This document shows positions 41,342 to 63,242 of a DNA stretch of 64,000 nt, piece by piece. The stretch is from Branchiostoma lanceolatum (Eukaryota; Chordata; Leptocardii; Amphioxiformes; Branchiostomatidae), in contig NC_089729.1 of the NCBI RefSeq assembly GCF_035083965.1, forward strand, positions 14,310,964 through 14,374,963, read 5' to 3'. The notes under the pieces are model-generated. The model ran no database searches. It saw only the letters and a program-made list of their open reading frames with translations, and was not told where the DNA came from. Position 1 is the stretch's first letter, and each line of letters begins with the position of its first letter. A program made the translations under genes and the position numbers.

Positions 41342-43683
41342 TCAGTCATCGAATCTCAAGGATTTACTTGCATTCTTATCAATAAAGAATGTCTTAGTTT
41401 TGGGGTCTTGGGCTTCACTGTACCCAAGTCCTGAGACCTTTGCTTCAGTCATTTTCCTATTTATAGCCGTGTCAAATTGGGACTCCAACAATTTGTTTAC
41501 ACTAGACTCTTGGGACTTATCCATGGCCATCGTGGAATGGGGTGAGCCTGAACTGAACTTTGATTGGCTGGTTGATTTCCTGAAATTGAAAGGTGATTGG
41601 TTGTTTCCTAATGTAGTTTTCTTCTTGGCACTTGATTGGTTGTCTTTGTCAGGGGTGCCCTTCAGGCCTCCCATAAGCCTGAAGAACTTGTTCTGTCTTT
41701 CCACACTCCCAAGAGAGGCAGTGCCCCATTGGCCGGCCTTGACTATGGGTGTCGGAGACTGAAAGATGAAGAAGAAAATAAGTCAGCGCAAGTTCAACTT
41801 TCTCTTTTTAAATACTAGTAACACTTTCAGTGTCATTCAATTTTCTTTTCAAAATTTTACCACTGTGGCACAATAGTAGGTTGAGAATTGTATAACTAGG
41901 ATAGCCAGGCTTCTCTGAATCTCCAACCAACATCTGCTTGGAGAATACTTATTTGCATATGTGCTAGCTATGCATCCCTCTTACATTCCAAGCAATCTTA
42001 AAACCTTGGGATCGGTTGATGCCTAAAATCTTTTTTTTCTGGCCTAACATGTTTTTTTCTGGCCTAACATGTTTTTTTCTGGCCTAAATATAATTTCTGT
42101 ATGCTCACCTCAGTATTCACCACTTTTTCCTTCTGTACATCTACCCTCTTCCCCGTGACAGTTTCCACTTCTCTCTGTAGCTCTCTTCTCCTCTCTCTTT
42201 CCACATCCCCGAGACCGTCTGGGTTCCCCTCTTTGACACTTACAACCGTCACATTGTCATGACTGTTGTCGTAGGTGAATCCCACGTTTTTGTATTCCAC
42301 CGAACTTTTTGTCTTGCCGTTATTGGTCGTGTACTTGCCATAGTCCCAACTTTCTGACGACTTTCGTTTTCTTTTTGATGGACTCTCTTCTTCACGTTTC
42401 ACCGTTATTAAGGATGCTGTACTGTTAACTTGGTCAGATTGTTCCTTATTTTCAACAGTGTCTTTGGTGCTTTTCTTGTCTTTCTTTTTCTTCTTCTTCT
42501 TAGCTTTAGGTTCTGTCACAGATGGTTGCTGTTTCTCTTCTAGATCTTTTACTTCTTTAAACTTTCTTTTCTTTGCCTTCTTTTCAGACTTGACATCTGT
42601 TTTGGGGCTAGACTCACAATTGACCGTTGAGTCTTTGTTGTCTGACTCAGTCTTAACTGTGGCATCAGAATGGTCTGGCTTTCTTTTTTTCTTCTTCTTG
42701 GTAGGTCTCTCTTCTTCGTCAACTTCAGAACTGTTCACGGACTTCTTGAGATCCTTTTCTTTTATCTTCTTTCCTTTTGTTTTTTCCAACTTTTCAACAT
42801 CACTTGTACCATACTGTTCATCTTCTTTTTGTTTCTTTTGTTTCTTCTTTTTCTTTTTTCCAGTGCCTTCTTCACTGGCATTACTAGTGCCAGCCTCTGA
42901 CTGAGATGATTTCCCTTTTTCTCTCTTTCGCTTCTTCGTACTTGTCTGTTGTGGTCCACTTTCCACTGCCACAGCCTCAACTTTGTTCTCGGTTGATTTC
43001 CTTTTTCTGGATTTCTTCAACTTTGCATCGTTGTTATTTTGAAGGCTGTCTGGCGTTTTCAAAGATTTGGCTACAATTGTTACATCTGTTTTCTTAACCA
43101 TTGAACTTACTTTTGGTTGATCATCTTCTACCACATTTGCATCCTTTTCTGTTTTCTTCTTAGCCGACTTTTTGGACTTCTTATATTTGACTCCTTCACC
43201 AGTGGTGCTTTCGGAGGCTGCAGATGCCTTCTTTTTTCTCTCTTTTCTCTCCTTCTTTGTAAGTTTCTCCTTTGTTACTGCATCTTCTATAACAATGCCC
43301 TCCTCTGTTCCTTTCCTCTTTTTAGACTTTTTAGGTTTAATTTTATCTTTAGGAGGACTGTCCGATGCAACTTCTATTGACATATCCAGTTTCCTCTTCT
43401 TTGAACCTGGTGACTTTTTCTTGTCTTCATCTTTGATTACGGTTACGTCCTCTTCCGTCTTGCTCTTCTTGGACTTTTTGTCTTTTTTAGTTCCAGCTTT
43501 TCCGTCATCTTGTGTTGGCGATACTACTTGCTTATAATCTTTCTTCTTTTTCAAACTTTTCTGCACTACCTTTTCTGCCTCGTCTTCATCACCGTGCGCT
43601 GCAACTACTTGTTTCTTCTTCTTTTCTTTCTTGGTGACTTTCATTTCAGAATCTTGGTGTTCAACCTTCTTTTTACCCATCAT
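41342..43683 (-). CDS. KNOP1: Lysine-rich nucleolar protein 1
   Basis: Two coding exons on the minus strand: 42109-43683 (ATG at 43683) and 41342-41758. They join in phase 0 via GAG|gtgagc and ctttcag|TCTCCG to 663 residues (human about 458). Residues 1-480 are a low-complexity string of KKKK, KKSK and acidic blocks, as expected for a nucleolar protein. The identifying part is the C-terminal exon, with NKFFRLMGGLKG, a Ser/Thr-rich stretch, SGLGYSEA and the end FFIDKNASKSLRFDD. These match the conserved C terminus of vertebrate KNOP1 (FLRLMGG..., FYIDRNASKS). An acceptor at 43687 suggests a 5' untranslated exon further up. It is head to head with IQCK, as in human. Confidence 0.9.
41919..41948. 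repeat. Minimal CTCCAA...TTGGAG hairpin
   Basis: ATCTCCAACCAACATCTGCTTGGAGAAT resembles the joined ends of the CTCCAAGCAGA hairpin MITE family. It lies in the KNOP1 intron and could be an internally deleted copy. Confidence 0.4.
42031..42086. repeat. 20-bp tandem repeat, three copies
   Basis: CTGGCCTAACATGTTTTTTT repeats about three times in the KNOP1 intron, close to the donor site. Confidence 0.8.
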
Positions 43684-45470: not shown

Positions 45471-45488
45471 TTGGTGTCAGAAGTGAAC
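45471..45488 (+). other. Candidate primer-binding site
   Basis: TTGGTGTCAGAAGTGAAC directly follows the 5' LTR. The TGGTGTCAGAAGTG core ends in the complement of a tRNA CCA tail. I could not assign the tRNA. Confidence 0.6.
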
Positions 45489-45534
45489 AGAAGAATCTGG
45501 AACGCGCGTCGGACAAAGAACAAAGAAACTCAAA

Positions 45535-46329
45535 ATGGCTGCGACACGTGCAGAAATCAAACTCGCCAAGTTCTCGGGCCGTAACCTGAATTTCGGCTCT
45601 TGGTATAGGCAGTTTGCTCGCCTGGCCAGATTGCAACAATGGAAAGTAGAAAGTTACCCAATGTACCTCATGCTACATTTGGAGGGTCCGGCTCTAGAGT
45701 ACGCCGAGAGTTTGGGTGACAAGTTGACAAACGACGTGGAAAATTTGCACACGGTGTTATCAGACAGGTTTGGGGCCGGGGAAAGGAAGCAAACCTCGCT
45801 CGACGAGCTACTGCACTTCCACAGGAAGGTCGGAGAGACACTACTCGACTATGAAATGCGACTGAGGTCATTGTTGCAGTACGGGCACCCCAAAACAGAT
45901 GTAGCGGAGAGGGAGAAGATGGGGGTCAATTATTTCATTACCGGTCTGCAGCCCTCTAGGCTGGCAGAGAGGTTGGGCGACATTTTCCCTCGGCCGAATA
46001 ACCTGAGAGACATCCGCCGTGCCGCAGCACAGCTGGAGGGTACGGAGAGCACTACGGTGCACATGGTCGCTAGCAATAGCAGTGAGGAGGCGCTAGAAGA
46101 AAGGGTGGCCCGGCTGGAGAGCCGAGTAGAGGGCATGGCGGGTTGCCTGACCCGAATTGAAGACGCAGTAACGAAGAGCGACACCGGAGTTCGTACCCCA
46201 AGCAACCCGGGAAATGACAACAACAACAACGGAAACAAGGCTGGTGGTAGTGACTACATCTGTTTCAACTGTGGTGGCCGTGCGCACATGGCAAGGAACT
46301 GCCCCAGCCCGAAGAAGTCGTCAAACTAG
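45535..46329 (+). CDS. gag: Retrotransposon Gag
   Basis: 264 residues from the ATG at 45535. The N-terminal two thirds has the retrotransposon-gag helical fold look (WYRQFARLARLQQW..., then LHFHRKVGETLLDYEMRLRSL). A predicted coiled stretch (EERVARLESRVEGM) follows, and a single CCHC zinc knuckle (CFNCGGRAHMARNC, about residues 243-256) lies near the end. The frame stops at TAG 46327-46329. Pol is in the -1 frame relative to gag, with an overlap of about 75 bases, so Gag-Pol would need a frameshift. I did not find a canonical slippery heptamer. Confidence 0.93.
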   Translation: MAATRAEIKLAKFSGRNLNFGSWYRQFARLARLQQWKVESYPMYLMLHLEGPALEYAESLGDKLTNDVENLHTVLSDRFGAGERKQTSLDELLHFHRKVGETLLDYEMRLRSLLQYGHPKTDVAEREKMGVNYFITGLQPSRLAERLGDIFPRPNNLRDIRRAAAQLEGTESTTVHMVASNSSEEALEERVARLESRVEGMAGCLTRIEDAVTKSDTGVRTPSNPGNDNNNNGNKAGGSDYICFNCGGRAHMARNCPSPKKSSN

Positions 46330-46340
46330 GGGGCGCTGGG

Positions 46341-49300
46341 GTGGGGGGTGACACACTAGCGCATATTAAGGAGTCACCCCAGAACAGTAAGTTGAATGAT
46401 TCTTCTGATTGTGCCAACGATAATGAGGATTTTGAAGACAATGATCATGAAGATTGTGAAGCCAGGGAAATCAAGCAACTGTTATATTTAAATCTGGACA
46501 TGTGGAATCAAAATTTGAATGCATTGGTAGATTCAGGTGCGGGGCCATCTTGTGTTGATAGCTCAGTTTGGGAAAAGGGTGGCAAAGTGCCCTTAAAGAA
46601 TTGCTGGCAGAGTTTCGTAGCAGCGGGAGGTGGTGTACTTAAAGTGCTCGGTTCCGTGGAGGTGAGGATAAGGGTGCATGGTGCGGAGATCAAGAGGAAG
46701 GTCTATGTCGTTCACGGCTTGCAGGAGAGATGTATCCTGGGAATGGACTTTATGAGGTCAGTCAGAGCCGTTGTTGACACCGTAGGAGAGACCATCTCTG
46801 TCCGAGGCAGACCATGCCCCTTGCAAGTCCTGTCCATTCGCCCCAATGTCTGCAGGGTGAGTTTAGCGGAAGATGTTACCCTCCCGGGACGTCATGAAGT
46901 CGTCGTACCTGGATGCATACAAGATGCAAACCCTGGATGGGGAGGTTTTCTGTCTGCAGTGTTCGAACCCAACAGTTTGGAAGGGAAAGATAAAGTTGTG
47001 TGTGCCAGAACCGTGGTGATGCCGACCGAGGGGTCCGTGCCAGTAAGGCTGGTCAACATGTCGCCAGAGCCAGTGACATTACGGCGTGGTTCCAAGGTCG
47101 GACAGCTGACTCCTATGGATGGAGGGGAGGCTGAGGAAGTTGTACTGCCGCCAGCTGGCAAAGGCAGAACCAAGAGACGCACAAGGGCACAGCAAGTGTT
47201 GACGCTGAGGGGTCTGGCCACCAAGAGTTCTACTCCCGAGGCAGGAGAGGTGGATCGCATCCTGTCAGACCTTGGTCTGGACAGGAAGGACTTGAGCACA
47301 GACCAGCGGCGGCGTGTGTATAGGACAGTTGATCGATTTCAACATGTGTTCTCACGTGGACCGCTGGACTTGGGAAGAACTGACAAGGTCAAACACAAGA
47401 TTGACACCGGTAGTGCCAGGCCAGTGAAACTTGCACCTAGGCGGTACTCACCCCACCAGCGAGAAGAGATGGCGCGCTGCCTCCAGGGCATGCGAGAGAT
47501 AGGCATCATCAGGGAGTCACACTCTCCCTGGGGAGCTCCTGTAGTCTTGGTAAAGAAACCTGATGGATCAACACGATTCTGTGTGGACTACAGAAAGCTC
47601 AATGACTGTACACTGAAGGACGCATATCCCCTACCTAGGATAGACGACGCCCTGGACGCTTTGGGTGGAGCAAAGTACTTCAGTACCCTGGATCTGGTGA
47701 GCGGTTACCACCAAGTAGAAGTAGAGGAAAGTAGCAAAGAGAAGACAGCGTTCACTACACCTCTCGGATTGTGGGAGTTCAACACCCTTCCCATGGGCCT
47801 CTGCAACTCGCCCGCGACATTTGAACGGCTTATGGACTTAGTCTTGGCTGGACTCTGCTGGTCCTCCTGTCTTGTGTACCTCGATGATATTATAGTCTTT
47901 GGCCGTACGTTTGAAGAGCATTGGGACCGACTTGAGGCTGTCTTGCAGCGCCTACAAGATGCAGGGCTGAAGGTCAAGACTACCAAGTGTCAACTGCTGA
48001 GAGAGAAGGTGTCTTTCCTGGGACATGTAGTGAGTGAACAGGGGGTGGAGACAGAACCAGGGAAAGTAGAGGCCGTCAAAACCTGGCCGATCCCAAGTAA
48101 CAGGGGAGAGCTCCGATCGTTCTTGGGCTTTTGCTCTTACTACAGGAGGTTTGTGAGAAACTTTTCAGGTATCGCGGCACCGTTATACCAGCTGGCCAAC
48201 GACCGAGAGGGGAACTTTGAGTTCGGAGAGGAGGAAAAGGGGATTTTCAGGCAGTTGCAAAGAGAACTCACCACAGCCCCGGTCCTAGCCTTCCCCGATT
48301 TTCACAAGAAATTCATCTTAGACACAGATGCGTCAGATCGGGGACTGGGAGCTGTACTGTCTCAAGAAGTCAACGGTTGTGAACACCCTATAGCCTACCA
48401 CAGTCGTACGCTGAGCAAAGCTGAACGGAAGTATTGCACCACCAGGAAAGAGCTGCTTGCTCTCGTTAACTCTGTATGGCATTTCAGACACTATTTGTTA
48501 GGTTGTGAGTTTACTGTTCGTACCGACCACCACGCCCTAAAATGGCTGATGACATTTAAGGAGCCTGAGAATCAAGTAGCACGTTGGCTGGAGACGTTAG
48601 CGTCATTCTCATTCACGGTTCAGCACAGAGCTGGGAAGAAACACGGCAATGCTGACGGGTTGTCTAGGATTCCCTGCCGACAGTGCGGCCTAGAAGATGC
48701 ACCGACAGATGGCGTGATGTCAGTCCAGGTTGCTTCAGACCCCCCTGAGGTACTTGTACCTTTTGCAGCCGGTCAGGATATCAAGCAACAGCAGGCCGAC
48801 GATCCTGAGATAAGCCCCGTGCTATTAGCAGTGGAGAGCGGAGACGAGACTGAACAACCCTCCCCACTCGGGAAGGAAGGCTTGCGCTATTGGAATGACC
48901 GAGAGAGGATGGAGGTCAAGGAGGGGGTGTTGTACCGGAGATTGTATGCTGATAACACAGACACCTCCTATCGGCTCCAGCTCGTCGTGCCAAAGACTCT
49001 GAGGGAACAGGTGCTCAGGGAATGCCACGGAGGTATTCTGAGTGGGCACCTAGGGGTGGATAAAACCCTTCTAAGAATGCGAGAACGGTTCTTTTGGTAC
49101 GGGATGGCTACCGATGTCGAGCTACATGTGAAGGGATGTTCAGAGTGTGCCAAGAGGAAGACAGGGTCCCGGCGAAGAAGGGCACCATTAGTTCCCTCAT
49201 CCCCAGGATTCCGGTGGGAGAGGGTGGCCATGGACTTTATGGGACCCTTCCCAGAGACCCCGAAGGGAAATAAACACATATTGGTAATATCTGATTATAT

Positions 49301-50351
49301 GACGAAATGGGTGGAAGCTGTAGCGTTACCAGATCAAAAGGCGACGACCGTGGTGCGAGCATTGATTGATACATGGATCACCAGGTTCGGTGTGCCCTAC
49401 CAGCTGCACAGTGACCAAGGGAGAGACTTTGATTCACAGATTGTCCACACATTATGCCAGGAGCTGGGAATTAAGAAGACAAGAACTACGGCCTATCACC
49501 CAGAGGGTGATGGCATGGTCGAGCGATTTAATAGGACGGTCTGTCAGATTCTTACCATGTATGTGAATGACTCTCACACTGACTGGGATGCCCGCCTTCA
49601 GTCAGCCTTGTTCGCCTACCGTACCAGTGTCCACTCCAGCACAGACTACACTCCATTCTTTCTCACCTATGGTGAGGAAGCAAGGGTACCAGCCGACGTC
49701 ATGTGGCCTGTGGACAGGCCAGAGCCAGCTGGAGGGATAGACGTTCAGGCACAGGGGGTGAGAGAAGAATTGGATATGGCCTACAGAAGAGCTAGACAGA
49801 ACATGGAAACGGCCCACAGGCGCCAAAAGGATGTGTATGACAGAAAATGCCACGGAGGAGGCTTCTCCGTGGGGGACCAAGTTTGGCTGTCTATTCCAGC
49901 CGTCCCGAGAGGATTGAGCAAGAAGTTCTTCCCAAAATGGAAAGGACCCTACAGAGTGGTGACACGGATGTCAGATGTTACCTATAGAGTCCAGCGAGTG
50001 GGAGGACGACAGAGGGTCGTAGTGCACTTCAACAGGCTCAAGGAGTACCATGTGCAAGAGCCGGAAGAGGAAACAGGAGCGAGAGCAGAAGATTCTTTGA
50101 CAGATGAGTTACCTGCCGAGGAGACTCCAGCTGAGGATTCAGACGCAGAGTCGCTGCAGGATTGGGTGCAGTGTGACTCCTGTGACAGCTGGAGAAGGAT
50201 AACAGCACATGAAGCTGCTGAGATAGATCCAGACGGAGAGTGGTACTGCTCAATGAACGAAGACCAGAGTCAAAATGTGTGTGACGCTCCAGCACCCACT
50301 ACAACCCGCTCTCGACGCCGGGGGAGACCCCCGGATAGATTGGGGTTCTAA
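46341..50351 (+). CDS. pol: Retrotransposon Pol with C-terminal CW zinc finger
   Basis: 1,336 residues counted from the GTG at 46341; the frame is open from 46254. In order: aspartic protease (DSG at about 64-66), reverse transcriptase (YLDD near 513-516), RNase H (DTDAS near 660), integrase zinc-binding region (CHGG...H, CSEC; about 894-935), integrase core with D in MDFMGPF, D in HSDQGRDF and E in VERF (about 963, 1023, 1060), then a GPY/F module (WKGPYRV, about 1200). After an acidic linker comes a CW-type zinc finger, about 1275-1314, with WVQCDSC, WRR, EWYCSMN and the last Cys in NVCDAP (Cys 1278, 1281, 1303, 1314). That domain binds methylated H3K4 in MORC and ZCWPW proteins. All catalytic motifs are intact. 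Confidence 0.94.
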   Translation: MGGDTLAHIKESPQNSKLNDSSDCANDNEDFEDNDHEDCEAREIKQLLYLNLDMWNQNLNALVDSGAGPSCVDSSVWEKGGKVPLKNCWQSFVAAGGGVLKVLGSVEVRIRVHGAEIKRKVYVVHGLQERCILGMDFMRSVRAVVDTVGETISVRGRPCPLQVLSIRPNVCRVSLAEDVTLPGRHEVVVPGCIQDANPGWGGFLSAVFEPNSLEGKDKVVCARTVVMPTEGSVPVRLVNMSPEPVTLRRGSKVGQLTPMDGGEAEEVVLPPAGKGRTKRRTRAQQVLTLRGLATKSSTPEAGEVDRILSDLGLDRKDLSTDQRRRVYRTVDRFQHVFSRGPLDLGRTDKVKHKIDTGSARPVKLAPRRYSPHQREEMARCLQGMREIGIIRESHSPWGAPVVLVKKPDGSTRFCVDYRKLNDCTLKDAYPLPRIDDALDALGGAKYFSTLDLVSGYHQVEVEESSKEKTAFTTPLGLWEFNTLPMGLCNSPATFERLMDLVLAGLCWSSCLVYLDDIIVFGRTFEEHWDRLEAVLQRLQDAGLKVKTTKCQLLREKVSFLGHVVSEQGVETEPGKVEAVKTWPIPSNRGELRSFLGFCSYYRRFVRNFSGIAAPLYQLANDREGNFEFGEEEKGIFRQLQRELTTAPVLAFPDFHKKFILDTDASDRGLGAVLSQEVNGCEHPIAYHSRTLSKAERKYCTTRKELLALVNSVWHFRHYLLGCEFTVRTDHHALKWLMTFKEPENQVARWLETLASFSFTVQHRAGKKHGNADGLSRIPCRQCGLEDAPTDGVMSVQVASDPPEVLVPFAAGQDIKQQQADDPEISPVLLAVESGDETEQPSPLGKEGLRYWNDRERMEVKEGVLYRRLYADNTDTSYRLQLVVPKTLREQVLRECHGGILSGHLGVDKTLLRMRERFFWYGMATDVELHVKGCSECAKRKTGSRRRRAPLVPSSPGFRWERVAMDFMGPFPETPKGNKHILVISDYMTKWVEAVALPDQKATTVVRALIDTWITRFGVPYQLHSDQGRDFDSQIVHTLCQELGIKKTRTTAYHPEGDGMVERFNRTVCQILTMYVNDSHTDWDARLQSALFAYRTSVHSSTDYTPFFLTYGEEARVPADVMWPVDRPEPAGGIDVQAQGVREELDMAYRRARQNMETAHRRQKDVYDRKCHGGGFSVGDQVWLSIPAVPRGLSKKFFPKWKGPYRVVTRMSDVTYRVQRVGGRQRVVVHFNRLKEYHVQEPEEETGARAEDSLTDELPAEETPAEDSDAESLQDWVQCDSCDSWRRITAHEAAEIDPDGEWYCSMNEDQSQNVCDAPAPTTTRSRRRGRPPDRLGF

Positions 50352-57839: not shown

Positions 57840-60800
57840 CTAGGCCACGTCCCCGTACAGAGGCGGTTGGGAGGGTCTGCTGTTGTCGCTGCCTCGGGAC
57901 CTGGACGTTGCGTTGCCATTGACGATATTTTGACGAGGCGGATGGCTAACAGCGCGCGCGCGGCGTTGGTTCTCGGCGTTCACCTTCCTCAGATGGTGCC
58001 TTCTCTTCAGACGTGCGAGCGTCCATAGCTTTGGTATGAACATGAACAACAAGAGAATCCAACCGGTGGTCACCAGTCCTATACACACAGCCGGATCGCG
58101 CCAGTGTTCCTTATTCAGCGACGTAGCTCCTAGCGTATGCATTATCGTCCACGCAACCAGAATAAAACCCGTCAACCAGGCACTATTACTGATACAAATA
58201 ATCTCCGAAGTCCGCTCTCTACGAGTGCTTTTAACTATGGCGAATATAAGGGTCAGAAGTCCTAAGAGCATGACATAAGTAAGGGATTGGATGAGGGATT
58301 CCTTTCTGACGGCGCACTGAAAGATGTACTGGACCGTGTTATCTTTGGTTACGGCTGTGTAGACTGCTTTTGGGGGAGCGAGAATCAGCCATTCGACCGA
58401 CACTGCCACTTGTACGGCTACTAACAAAATGGCGATGACAAACATGACAGGGCTACTAGGAGGACGCGCCATCCCCGTTCGCGCGATTTTCGCCAACATG
58501 GCGGCGAAGCACACCGCGTACGCCAGTGCGAGACCCACACGACGCAGCCCGCACACGGCGTCCGTCGGCTCGATTACGAAGAACACCACCGTTACGAACA
58601 TCAATAGGATACCCACCAGCAGCAGATACCCCAACGCGGTTGATGAACGCTTTGTCTGAATGCTCTGGAGCGTCACCGTGACGTAACACGTAAAGATAGT
58701 CATGATGGTGACCCCTAACCCCGCAGCTACAACGACTAGCAACCCCCACAAACTCTCCAGGTCTGTGATTGGCGCGAAGACGTTCCTCGTAGCGTTGATG
58801 CCGGTTGGTTTAGACGAGGGAACGTTGGTACACTGGGGACAGAAGGAGGTGTCCTTGCACGCGGAGGTCGGGCGGCGCTCCATATCATCGGCGGCGTAGG
58901 CGCGAACTGTCCACGGCGTCAACTGGAGGGTGTTATCCGACCACGTCCCAACCTGTATATGAAAAAAAAATAGCTGTTTCTATCTTTTTGCTTCGTGTTT
59001 TAAAGTAAAAGGGAGTAATAGTCTTCCAAGATTACCTTCTTGGTCACTGACATGATAGAACACGTACATCTGATAAGCCGTGAACAGAAATTAAATCAAT
59101 TAAAAGTTGACGATTAGACCTACTTCTTTGTAGCCGTAGGATCCTCCGCTTTGCCTCTGGTAGTTGAGAATCTTCATCCGGGCCGCCGCATCACCACTGG
59201 GTGTGAATCTGAATATCCCTCCGCTCTCGTCCATGTACGAAACCGCCCTGATTTTGTCCACGATGTCTTGCAGTCTTCCCACCGAACTCCAGTATGCGTC
59301 GCACAACCCGGGCGTCGAACACGTTTCTTTCCAGTATTGGTGTATTCCTCTTGCCATGGCAACAACTGCGTTGATGGTGCTCAGTGCGCAGCCGTCGTCC
59401 AAGAAGTCAAAGTTCACGACGCGCGAGTCACTCCCGCATTGCCTACCATATTTGGCAATAGTCCCGGGGAGGTCACATTGAAAAAGGTATTGCCAGAATG
59501 GTTTGAACCATGGGTTCCGTGTGTTCTGTCCAGGGGTAAGAGACGATACGTAGTTCTCAAACGCCTGTGATTTTCTGACTTCTGTTTCTAGCCTCAGCGC
59601 TCCCCTTGTGGCATATTTCAAGGTCACGTTCGTCGAAAAGAAGGCGTTGTCGTTGCCAAGGCCAAGAGCGGATACCCACGTGAAGAGGCCAAGGGCATCG
59701 CCCCGCGAGGTGGCGCCAATAAGGCTTCGCGCTTGCGCAGAAGACAGAAATAGCACAACGGCCTCTGCTCCCTTTTCTGCGTGTTCTTTTAGTGCTGCAA
59801 TCGTTCTGTCGTAATCCCCACTCTGGTGGAAACTTTTCACCTCCACTTCTGTCGCAATACATATCCCCTGTCGGGTGGCGGCAGACACGAAGTCTTTTTT
59901 CAGCATTTTAAACATCTCGTCTTCACTATTGACAACTGAGACGTAACTAAAACCCAACCTTCTCAGAACTGCGATTGTAACGTTCACTTTTTGTTTTTCC
60001 GACGATACGGCGTTTAAAAAGTTGGGGTACCTAGACCTATCTGTTAAATGTCGGTTGTTTTGGCAAGTTCCTATCTCCGGTATTTCTAAACCATCCAAAA
60101 AAGTCGCCAGTTGTTGCGACTCGCCCGCATTTGAAGAACCGACGTAACCGGCTATTTGTGAAACTAGGTCTCCTCTCGAAGTTTTCCCCGTGCTCTGTAG
60201 ATTTGAGGCGTCCCTAACGGCTTTTACACCGCTCGAACACGAGTCTAGAACAACAGTTCCTAGTTTGAGGGTAGGGAGTATATCTCTGTCGGCGTTGACT
60301 TTGTCTAAAGCGTACAAAAGCGCCTCGACGTCCTGTACTACCGCCTTGGAACGTAAGGCGCCGCAGGCAAACGGAGACGACGATTGACTGGAGTGGACGG
60401 GAATGACAGCAGGAATGATGACGTCACCGGGGATGTAGATGACGTCGTCTGCACGTGCGCATTCGGGGCAGGTGCCGACGCAGTAGGACGTGGATACCAC
60501 AGGCATGTTCTGATCGTTGTAGGTGAAGACATCTGACGGGTTCAGCTGTAGAATGCCACCCGCATAGCGACCAACCTGTCACAGAAATGGTATAACAATG
60601 GTTAGAAACTAGCTTATTATCCACTCGTCATGGCAGCACTGGCAGTTGCCACTATCTTGGGATTTCGACACCTTCTGGTTATCATTTTGTTTCCAGACTA
60701 GATAAAGGACAGGAAGTTCAAAGACTGCAGTACCATCAAATATCACAAGCTGCGCTTCAGTTTACCGCTAGGTACTAGTTGCTGATATTATTGAAATCAT

Positions 60801-62466
60801 GCCAGATCTTTACAAAAAGGCATAATTTAACTTCAGCATCAATACTATATATATATGGAAATACAAAAACACAAACTTCCTTACATATAAGAGTACAATT
60901 CAATAACGGCATGTAATGATCTCTTCCACAAATTACATCCCCTACTAACAATTTTCTCCCCCGAAGCAAAGTCCGCACGCGAACCTGTCCGTATTTGCCA
61001 GCAAATACTGATTTCTAGTTCTATTACCGTTTTAATACACATCCAGAAACAGCTTTACATATACTCTTACGCATATATCTATCCAACATATATAGTTGTT
61101 GACATACCTTAGTCATTGCAAAGGCCCCACCAGGGATCCTCTTGTAGTTGAGCACGTCGAAAGCTGGCTCCGCAAATCGGTCCTGTGTGAATCTGAAATT
61201 ACTCCCACTAACAGAAAGGAAACTCATCCTCTTCAATTTCTCAAAGAACCGTGCTCCTTTCCCTGCCACGCATGCGCTGACGGGGCCCAAACATCCTCCA
61301 GACAACACAGCTTCCAGCGCATGCGCAAACGAGTACACACTGTTGAAGACTGGAAGAACTAACGGGTCCTGGTCGAACCCAGAGTTTTCGTCCAAAACCT
61401 CGTTCCCAGTGCAGTTCTGACCAAAGGCACCGTCTCCAGGGAAGAGGTCACAGTTAAAATATTGTTGCCAAAATACTCGAAATGAGGGGTTACGGGTATA
61501 GTTTGCTGGATTTAAAGTTTTTAGATACTCTTTGAAAGTATCGATTTCTTGGGTCTCTGTTTCCAGTGACATCGATCCTTTGGCGACTGAGTCGAAATTA
61601 TTCATTTCAAGAACGTCCTTCAGGCCGAAACCCAACCATTGGAACCGTGTAGAAACCCCAGCTCGCGTGGCTGCCTCGAAAACCCTGTGAATAGCCTCCA
61701 TTTGAAGCAGCAACACGACGCCTTTGGCCCCTTGCTTGCTTCTCAAAACGGAAATGACGTAGTCAAGGTCAGTGTCCGTGCTGTTCTGACGCACAAATTG
61801 TGTAGAGGAGATGCATACGTCATCATTTTCTGCGATTCTTCGGAAGGCTTTTAGATTGGCTGATCCGTAAACGTCGTCTGAAACGATTACTGACACATAC
61901 GTCCATCTAAGTTTCTTGACAATCTCGACTAGGACGGCGCCATGCGTATTTTCACTCGGTAGAGCCCGAAATAAGTAGGGATACAAGAGATCGTCACTCA
62001 GCGCCGCGCTTGTTGTCGTGTAGCTGATTTGAGGCGTCTGCGTCGAGGCTAGGATACTCGCTACCGCAGCGGTGACTTGGTCGGATTCGCCACTGACAAA
62101 TCCAACAACTTTATCTTTGTCGTCACTAAGATATCCTGCGCCCCCGCTTAACAGGTTCGTTACCTCAAGAGCTGCTATTTCGGGACTATTGCAGCTGTCA
62201 ATCACAACCCCACCCAGCCTAACACCTGGCAGAAGGGCGGAGTCACGGTTGATGACGTCAATGGCAAAGAAGAAGGCCTCGACCAATTGGAGACTGGTAG
62301 CAGGTACGACGTCTCCGCACGTGAAGGGCACGTGACCAGCGGGATGGACGGGGATGAGGGCGGCAATGATGACGTCACCTGGAGTACGCAGATGAGGCTG
62401 CCCTTCACCGTTTGAGAGGAGGAGTGTGAACACCAAGAATACCGTTGCTAGGCAATACGACGTCAT
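57840..62466 (-). CDS. Class C GPCR with two Venus-flytrap domains (mGluR-like)
   Basis: Minus-strand exons 61108-62466, 59124-60575 and 57840-58952 join in phase 0 to 1,307 residues. A signal peptide (MTSYCLATVFLVFTLLL) is followed by a first Venus-flytrap (about 28-450) and a short Cys linker (SYCVGTCPEC). A second Venus-flytrap (about 500-930) and a similar linker (CKDTSFCPQC) come next. Seven membrane segments (about 1005-1245) include the class C marks CGLRR in TM3 and FIPKLW in TM7. An Arg/Ser-rich tail follows. Each flytrap plus linker start is one exon. By eye, flytrap 1 keeps T152 and Y200 at the mGluR1 T188 and Y236 positions, with E172 for D208; flytrap 2 has lost these. The full nine-Cys domain of mGluRs is missing. 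The ligand is unknown, possibly an amino acid. Confidence 0.88.
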
Positions 62467-63242
62467 GTTGATGAGCCTGTGTACGGAATCAAATCATCAC
62501 ATGTCAGTCAGATTCGTCTAACTCTTTGTTAAATTTTGGAATATGGTCTGTAATTTTTTCTTTTAATTATAGCACAACAAATACAGCCTACACAATTACA
62601 AACAAAGCATACACTTGAGCTCGCGCAAAATTAACCAAACTAAGGAACACCCTGTTAAATTGACTGAAAACGAATGGCACTCGATAATCTACGAGTAGTT
62701 TGGATTCGTCCCCATACCGTATCCAAAACGAATTATTGATAACCCCAAATTTAAGCCTTCAGGGGATTTAGCTTTATAAACGTCAGTTTCATTGGGCATA
62801 TCGTTAAGTCTTCATCCTTTCTAATGTCCCTTTTCATTGGCGGGCGTTTCGTTTGAAATGTTTCAGTTGCGTGACCCAAAAAGATTACCCTTAATACGTA
62901 ATTATATGGGTGTTCAAATTCAGAATGAAAATGGGAGTAACACGCTAATTTTGAATTGTATATCAGAACATGCTACCCACAAAGATCAATTCAATGCCTA
63001 CTTAGAACTAAGTAGAATATTGCTGTCCAGTTATTTTAGAATAAACTATCAACTTGTACTTTTGTCTCTTATCCATGATTTAATATGAGAAGTCATCACA
63101 GGTCAGTGTACCAGCTAGTGACTCGCTAGGTTACTTCTTGCAAGAGTGCAAAGTTCACGCCATATTTCTTGTACTATAAATAATACCGTACGGTTACACT
63201 TAGTGATAGACTGAGATATTGGGCAATATTGTATCGTTTCTG

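Follow-up and report, generated by a model that had tools for sequence, protein, structure and literature searches.

The 64,000-nucleotide window analyzed here, positions 14,310,964 to 14,374,963 of contig NC_089729.1 in the Branchiostoma lanceolatum assembly GCF_035083965.1, carries on its minus strand a three-exon gene that runs from an ATG at window position 62466 to a TAG at 57840 and encodes 1307 amino acids. The locus is a continuous three-exon frame whose product is a class C receptor belonging to the metabotropic glutamate receptor (mGluR) line, with two tandem Venus-flytrap domains in one chain where one is usual. Exon 1 (61108-62466) supplies the start codon, a hydrophobic leader and most of flytrap 1 in 453 codons; exon 2 (59124-60575) supplies the end of flytrap 1, a first cysteine (Cys) linker and flytrap 2 in 484 codons; and exon 3 (57840-58952) supplies the end of flytrap 2, a second linker, the seven-transmembrane (7TM) domain and the tail in 370 codons plus the TAG. 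All three exons are open, giving products of 453, 484 and 370 residues. Intron 1 (60576-61107, 532 bp) and intron 2 (58953-59123, 171 bp), on the minus strand like the exons, are both phase 0 with GT-AG ends (GTATGT..TGACAG and GTAGGT..ATACAG); stops in all three frames close each of them, and they are AT-rich, with GC contents of 0.37 and 0.33 versus 0.50-0.55 for the exons. Ten bases 5' of the ATG, at 62477-62478 on the minus strand, an AG in the sequence CACAG followed by GCTCATCAACATG is a possible splice acceptor, which would imply an exon of 5' untranslated region further up; in one B. belcheri gene model (P0006) the residues FIN precede the same Met. Were intron 1 retained, the frame would continue for 27 codons to a stop (61027-61107, minus strand), possibly yielding a secreted flytrap 1, and the intron holds one AATAAA/ATTAAA-type hexamer.

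With very little doubt, the protein consists of a leader, flytrap 1, a three-Cys linker, flytrap 2, a second three-Cys linker, a class C 7TM domain and a tail. Domains were called by a Pfam profile search of the three exon products, in which each match spans nearly the full profile: ANF_receptor in exon 1 (residues 63-443, E 1.9e-53), ANF_receptor again in exon 2 (exon-product residues 84-474, E 1.1e-38) and 7tm_3 in exon 3 (PF00003, residues 65-308, E 2.1e-32, profile positions 3-251 of 251). Both marks of a class C G-protein-coupled receptor (GPCR) are therefore on one chain, a 7tm_3 seven-transmembrane domain and an extracellular ANF_receptor flytrap, the latter twice. On the minus strand, the parts map to a predicted signal peptide of residues 1-22 (62401-62466), called from a hydropathy peak only; the last strand of flytrap 1 with linker 1, residues 454-495 (60450-60575); flytrap 2, residues 496-937 (59124-60449), supported by Pfam, Protein Data Bank (PDB) and BLASTP matches; the last strand of flytrap 2 with linker 2, residues 938-1001 (58761-58952); the 7TM domain, called from the 7tm_3 match, with approximate bounds at residues 1002-1250 (58014-58760); and a C-terminal tail of 57 residues (57843-58013). 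A hydropathy scan gives merged, overlapping peaks across residues 994-1252 and not seven clean ones; seven membrane segments are assigned because the 7tm_3 match covers the full profile. The two flytraps are 31% identical to each other (BLASTP E 9e-64) and match PDB mGluR flytraps at E 8e-57 and 6e-53, and the best PDB sequence matches of each of the three exon products are mGlu subtypes, the nearest to exon 3 being mGlu3 (76.8 bits). The second intracellular loop, between transmembrane segments 3 and 4 (58437-58499, minus strand), is about 13 residues shorter than that of mGlu3, which may affect the choice of G protein.

A first-pass annotation of this DNA had proposed two flytraps in one chain encoded by three phase-0 exons, and its coordinates, exons and domain order are borne out by the open reading frames (ORFs), splice sites and Pfam matches. 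It had also described the nine-Cys domain of mGluRs as replaced by a short linker of three to four cysteines after each flytrap. The linkers are present, but each has exactly three cysteines, at residues 485, 489 and 492 in linker 1 and at 969, 975 and 978 in linker 2. The absence of the nine-Cys domain holds: with only these three cysteines per linker, none of the exon products had an NCD3G match listed with an E value up to 10, in a search where the HMMER filters remove most hits with E above roughly 0.1.

The junctions between exons argue for a single gene. Exon 2 opens with VGRYAGGILQLNP, a final flytrap strand that leads into a linker; the exon has no leader, and an in-frame stop lies just upstream of its acceptor. 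Since it carries the end of flytrap 1 without a leader, exon 2 needs exon 1, and exon 1 is not a complete gene because its flytrap is only completed at the start of exon 2. Exon 3 opens in the equivalent way with VGTWSDNTLQLTP, the two exon starts aligning at a score of 61 (best of 1000 shuffles, 43), and intron 2 interrupts flytrap 2 at the position where intron 1 interrupts flytrap 1. In a PDB sequence search with the joined 1307-residue protein, mGlu7 was matched in three successive stretches, the second of which (query 690-948) crosses the exon 2/3 junction at 937/938, and stretches matching mGlu1 and mGlu5 reach query positions 467 and 474, beyond the exon 1/2 junction at 453/454. Two alternatives for this locus were rejected: exon 1 as a gene of its own, on the grounds of the exon 2 start, and a fusion or assembly error specific to this window, given that two database proteins share the 1307-residue layout.

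The double-flytrap layout, which the first-pass annotation suggested looking for in other lancelets, is conserved in their database models. A protein search, which depends on shared 5-residue words, returned seven proteins among the matches listed, three from lancelets and four fish class C receptors, including one named CaSR-like and one taste receptor type 1 (T1R). The same layout is found in P0004 (B. belcheri, 1307 residues, 90% identical), P0005 (B. floridae, 1307 residues, 89%) and P0006 (the second B. belcheri model, 1355 residues, 84%), of which two are named "metabotropic glutamate receptor 3-like" and one "hypothetical". No gap is needed to align the window protein with P0004 and P0005; between pairs of the three, flytrap 1 is 85.6-87.7% identical, flytrap 2 85.6-89.3% and the 7TM domain 94.0-95.2%. 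In P0006 about 45 residues of flytrap 2 are missing and the linker 2 sequence diverges, which looks like a model error; for these features P0006 was left out of the pairwise comparison and pocket counts. With residues 480-1260 and 985-1255 of P0005 as queries, only the three lancelet proteins appeared among the matches listed, a result that says nothing on other phyla. The cytoplasmic tail is 100% identical in the four lancelet sequences, exceeding the conservation of the 7TM domain or the flytraps.

Both flytraps retain the cysteines at mGlu1 positions 67/109, 378/394 and 432/439, which we take to be the three intra-flytrap pairs of mGluRs, as well as the lobe-2 cysteine (mGlu1 Cys254; mGlu2 Cys234) at residues 218 and 692 of the window protein. 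Flytrap 2 has two additional cysteines, at residues 624 and 849. A counterpart of Cys140, presumably the inter-subunit cysteine of mGluRs, is absent from both, the column being a gap. In mGlu2 a bond joins the lobe-2 Cys234 to Cys518 in the cysteine-rich domain, and from Cys234 helix F extends to the pocket residue Tyr216 (PMC12394075). In mGlu1 numbering, the ends of this helix, Tyr236 and Cys254, are both found in flytrap 1, and Cys254 alone in flytrap 2. The three cysteines of each linker would all be accounted for if one were bonded to lobe 2 and the other two to each other.

The ligand pockets of the two flytraps have diverged from those of mGluRs to different degrees. In mGlu1, the residues that hold the backbone of the amino acid are Ser165, Thr188, Asp208, Tyr236 and Asp318, and Lys409 is the one that binds glutamate; Ser165 is named as the most conserved pocket residue in class C (PMC2680970). 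At the five backbone positions flytrap 1 has Asp, Thr (Ser in B. floridae), Glu, Tyr and a gap, the Asp318 column lying in a 3-residue gap, and flytrap 2 has Ala, Asn, Glu, Met and Leu/Phe, so that neither carries the amino-acid-binding set. Neither carries the glutamate side-chain pair Arg78 and Lys409 either; these positions are Leu and Leu in flytrap 1 and Asp/Glu and Cys in flytrap 2. Against the three mGlu subtypes of the comparison set (1, 3 and 4), eight pocket positions are identical in all three, and flytrap 1 keeps 2/8 (Thr188 and Tyr236) and flytrap 2 0/8. Over all 148 columns identical in the three subtypes, 75 are kept in flytrap 1 and 71 in flytrap 2, which makes the pocket of flytrap 2 significantly depleted (Fisher p 0.007). 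Among the three lancelet sequences, pocket positions vary at 2/16 in flytrap 1 and 6/17 in flytrap 2, neither differing significantly from the rest of its own domain (p 0.75 and 0.09). The pocket of flytrap 1 is altered and that of flytrap 2 dismantled, and neither resembles a glutamate site. The first-pass annotation had held the pocket residues to be kept in the first flytrap and lost in the second; the inequality of the flytraps survives in a weaker form (2/8 versus 0/8), but the wording that flytrap 1 keeps its pocket had to be rejected, with only 2/8 retained, Arg78, Lys409 and Ser165 substituted and Asp318 in a gap.

A tree of 12 flytraps (both from each of three lancelet sequences, those of mGlu1, 3 and 4, and three from fish CaSR/T1R-like proteins) omitted P0006, for its flytrap 2 gap and divergent linker 2, and the fish protein P0009. 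Flytraps 1 and 2 group together with support of 87/88, and both fall on the mGlu1/3/4 side versus the fish proteins at 100/100. The exon products gave no other match in the window at E 0.01 when compared by BLASTP with stop-to-stop frames of at least 40 amino acids. A duplicated flytrap-linker unit is proposed because exons 2 and 3 start alike. We favor a course that starts from one ancestral unit, to which the LQL-P motif and three-Cys stub common to both units point: the cysteine-rich domain would first have been reduced to the three-Cys stub, and the flytrap-plus-linker unit would then have been duplicated. Alternatively, two tandem genes may have been joined by a deletion that removed the 7TM domain of the first and the leader of the second. 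Exon 2 would be a hybrid that combines the last part of copy 1 with the main part of copy 2, a make-up that fits a duplication after which a deletion, starting in the copy 1 linker, ran into the beginning of copy 2.

How such a receptor might work can be read from these features in several ways. We regard as evenly poised between right and wrong the proposal that flytrap 1 senses a ligand and flytrap 2 relays the signal to the 7TM domain. The ligand of flytrap 1 is probably not glutamate, because the glutamate clamp is lost, and flytrap 1 probably senses something else. As the sensor, it would close on this ligand and pull on linker 1 through helix F and its disulfide. Flytrap 2, which retains the fold and the disulfide cysteines with the pocket residues examined all lost, would act as a relay or allosteric spacer and transmit the movement through its own disulfide to linker 2 and then to the 7TM domain. 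A number of results weigh against this account and the framework on which it stands. Pocket depletion in flytrap 1 is not significant (p 0.16), nor is the difference in pocket variability between flytraps 1 and 2 (p 0.22), and with Ser165 lost from flytrap 1 its cleft may bind nothing. Approximately unbiased tests did not reject trees placing flytrap 1 (p 0.076) or flytrap 2 (p 0.195) with mGlu, so the grouping of the flytraps is not firm, and two different mGluR genes may have been fused instead of one unit being doubled. An AlphaFold2 model of the B. floridae ectodomain from a 5-row alignment was uninformative and supports no claim (mean predicted local distance difference test score 33.3, predicted template modeling score 0.24). 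The relatives with the same layout are database gene models and not transcripts, and lancelet gene models are known to include false fusions (PMC4967905).

A rival reading is that exon 1 is a separate secreted flytrap gene fused in the models, or that the locus is dying or already a pseudogene. Gene models in lancelets are error-prone (PMC4967905), intron 1 contains the AATAAA/ATTAAA-type hexamer, and its retention would give just such a secreted flytrap 1. We nevertheless consider a fusion or pseudogene highly improbable: exon 2 starts with the flytrap 1 strand and linker behind a stop and without its own leader, all exons are open, the alignment to two 1307-residue proteins is free of gaps with flytrap identities of 85.6-89.3% among the three, and the raw DNA of the window reads the same as three agreeing database models.

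If the chain is accepted as one, its two flytraps may each bind a different non-glutamate ligand, the receptor integrating them by AND or modulator logic. The equal conservation of flytrap 2 among lancelets (85.6-89.3% versus 85.6-87.7% for flytrap 1) speaks for this, as does its altered cleft having fixed residues of its own, C, Q and N at mGlu1 186-188; but with none of the eight invariant pocket positions kept and 6/17 cleft positions varying among the three lancelet sequences, we think two sensors rather unlikely. The sensor and relay arrangement would also give way to another if flytraps 1 and 2 of one chain packed lobe to lobe as the protomers of mGluRs or GABA-B receptors do. The gene would then encode a flytrap dimer built into one polypeptide, with a ligand-sensing and a ligand-blind flytrap, a single 7TM domain and a non-glutamate ligand. 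The presence in cis of two homologous flytraps whose pockets are unequal, and the lack of a Cys140 counterpart for an inter-chain bond in either, are consistent with such packing. At L116, I120, L174, L177 and F178, which we take to be the dimer interface positions of lobe 1 in mGlu1, flytrap 1 reads A, T, I, S, T and flytrap 2 V, S, F, G, L, so that the interface is mostly non-hydrophobic in flytrap 1; linker 1 and the final flytrap 1 strand together span about 40 residues, and the structural model offers no help. We judge a built-in dimer of this kind, in the whole form just described, to be unlikely.

Set beside mGluRs, the lancelet receptor has the same ANF_receptor flytrap with six conserved cysteines, lobe-2 Cys254 and 7tm_3 domain, and is nearest by PDB sequence to mGlu3/2 in the 7TM domain and flytrap 2 and to mGlu1/4 in flytrap 1. 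It differs in having two flytraps and no NCD3G cysteine-rich domain, in lacking Arg78, Lys409, Ser165 and Asp318 in both flytraps, and in having no Cys140 counterpart. The class IV mGluRs of bilaterians have likewise lost Arg78 and Lys409, with non-polar residues in their place (PMC6307864), and in the lancelet flytrap 1 both are also replaced by non-polar residues (L, L). Class IV receptors keep the contacts to the amino-acid backbone, whereas the lancelet receptor mostly does not, and flytrap 1 shares the first feature of the class and not the second. GABA-B receptors (GB1/GB2) also lack a cysteine-rich domain, and the proposed parallel is their pairing of one ligand-competent with one non-competent flytrap (PMC12138688), for which the pocket counts of 2/8 versus 0/8 are suggestive only. 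The first-pass annotation had likened the two flytraps to the division of labor in GABA-B, where one subunit binds and the other transduces, but this is no more than a resemblance: both flytraps lack a Cys140 counterpart, and flytrap 1 has few hydrophobic residues at the presumed lobe-1 dimer positions. Unlike the lancelet receptor, with one chain, one 7TM domain and three cysteines per linker, GABA-B has its two flytraps on two chains, two 7TM domains and a linker without conserved cysteines. Two flytraps per chain also occur outside class C, in the bacterial protein BvgS. The receptor adenylate cyclases of Trypanosoma brucei share this layout (PMC6027212). By their descriptions, both are set apart from the lancelet protein as a single-pass cyclase or histidine kinase rather than a 7TM receptor. 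In Venus kinase receptors a flytrap is attached to a kinase (PMC3703292).

In the open-licence literature, no double-flytrap class C GPCR was recognized among the matches listed. Nordstrom et al. 2008 put the number of Glutamate-family receptors in B. floridae at 17 in their text and 18 in their abstract (PMC2246102), and Ramos-Vicente et al. 2018 describe five mGluRs of amphioxus, with expression in the nerve cord, in a paper whose main text does not contain "Venus", "tandem" or "two ligand-binding" (PMC6307864). An eLife survey of 2025 gives the metazoan layouts as ANF with NCD3G, ANF alone, or Cache with EGF, and neither "two ANF" nor "multiple ANF" occurs in its excerpted text (PMC12716839). 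The receptor is filed in databases as "mGluR3-like", and its domain-level novelty was not found in print among the matches listed in that literature.

Switching in class C receptors is considered to require two flytraps, which two chains contribute. One chain with two unequal flytraps and one 7TM domain is a natural test of the purpose of the second flytrap and of the second 7TM domain, and also of replacing the cysteine-rich domain by a short disulfide-tied linker. If the built-in dimer were true, one chain would do what mGluRs and GABA-B need two for.

Elsewhere in the window, a retroelement at 46254-50348 on the plus strand has a pol ORF with protease, reverse transcriptase, RNase H and integrase, and is by domain order probably of the Ty3/Gypsy type. 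Behind the integrase, this ORF finishes with a zinc finger of the CW type (PF07496, E 5e-13), which we take to be a histone-reader fold; it is placed as though to target the retroelement to chromatin. The pol ORF is preceded at 45487-46326 (plus strand) by a gag-like ORF, whose matches to PNMA and zinc-knuckle profiles are weak. Between 1250 and 40000 on the plus strand lies an apparent tandem array of carboxylesterase genes, with similar ORFs recurring by eye and COesterase matches in the three ORFs tested (E 3e-50 to 4e-49), and an ORF at 41345-41782 on the minus strand matches SMAP (small acidic protein, E 6e-14).

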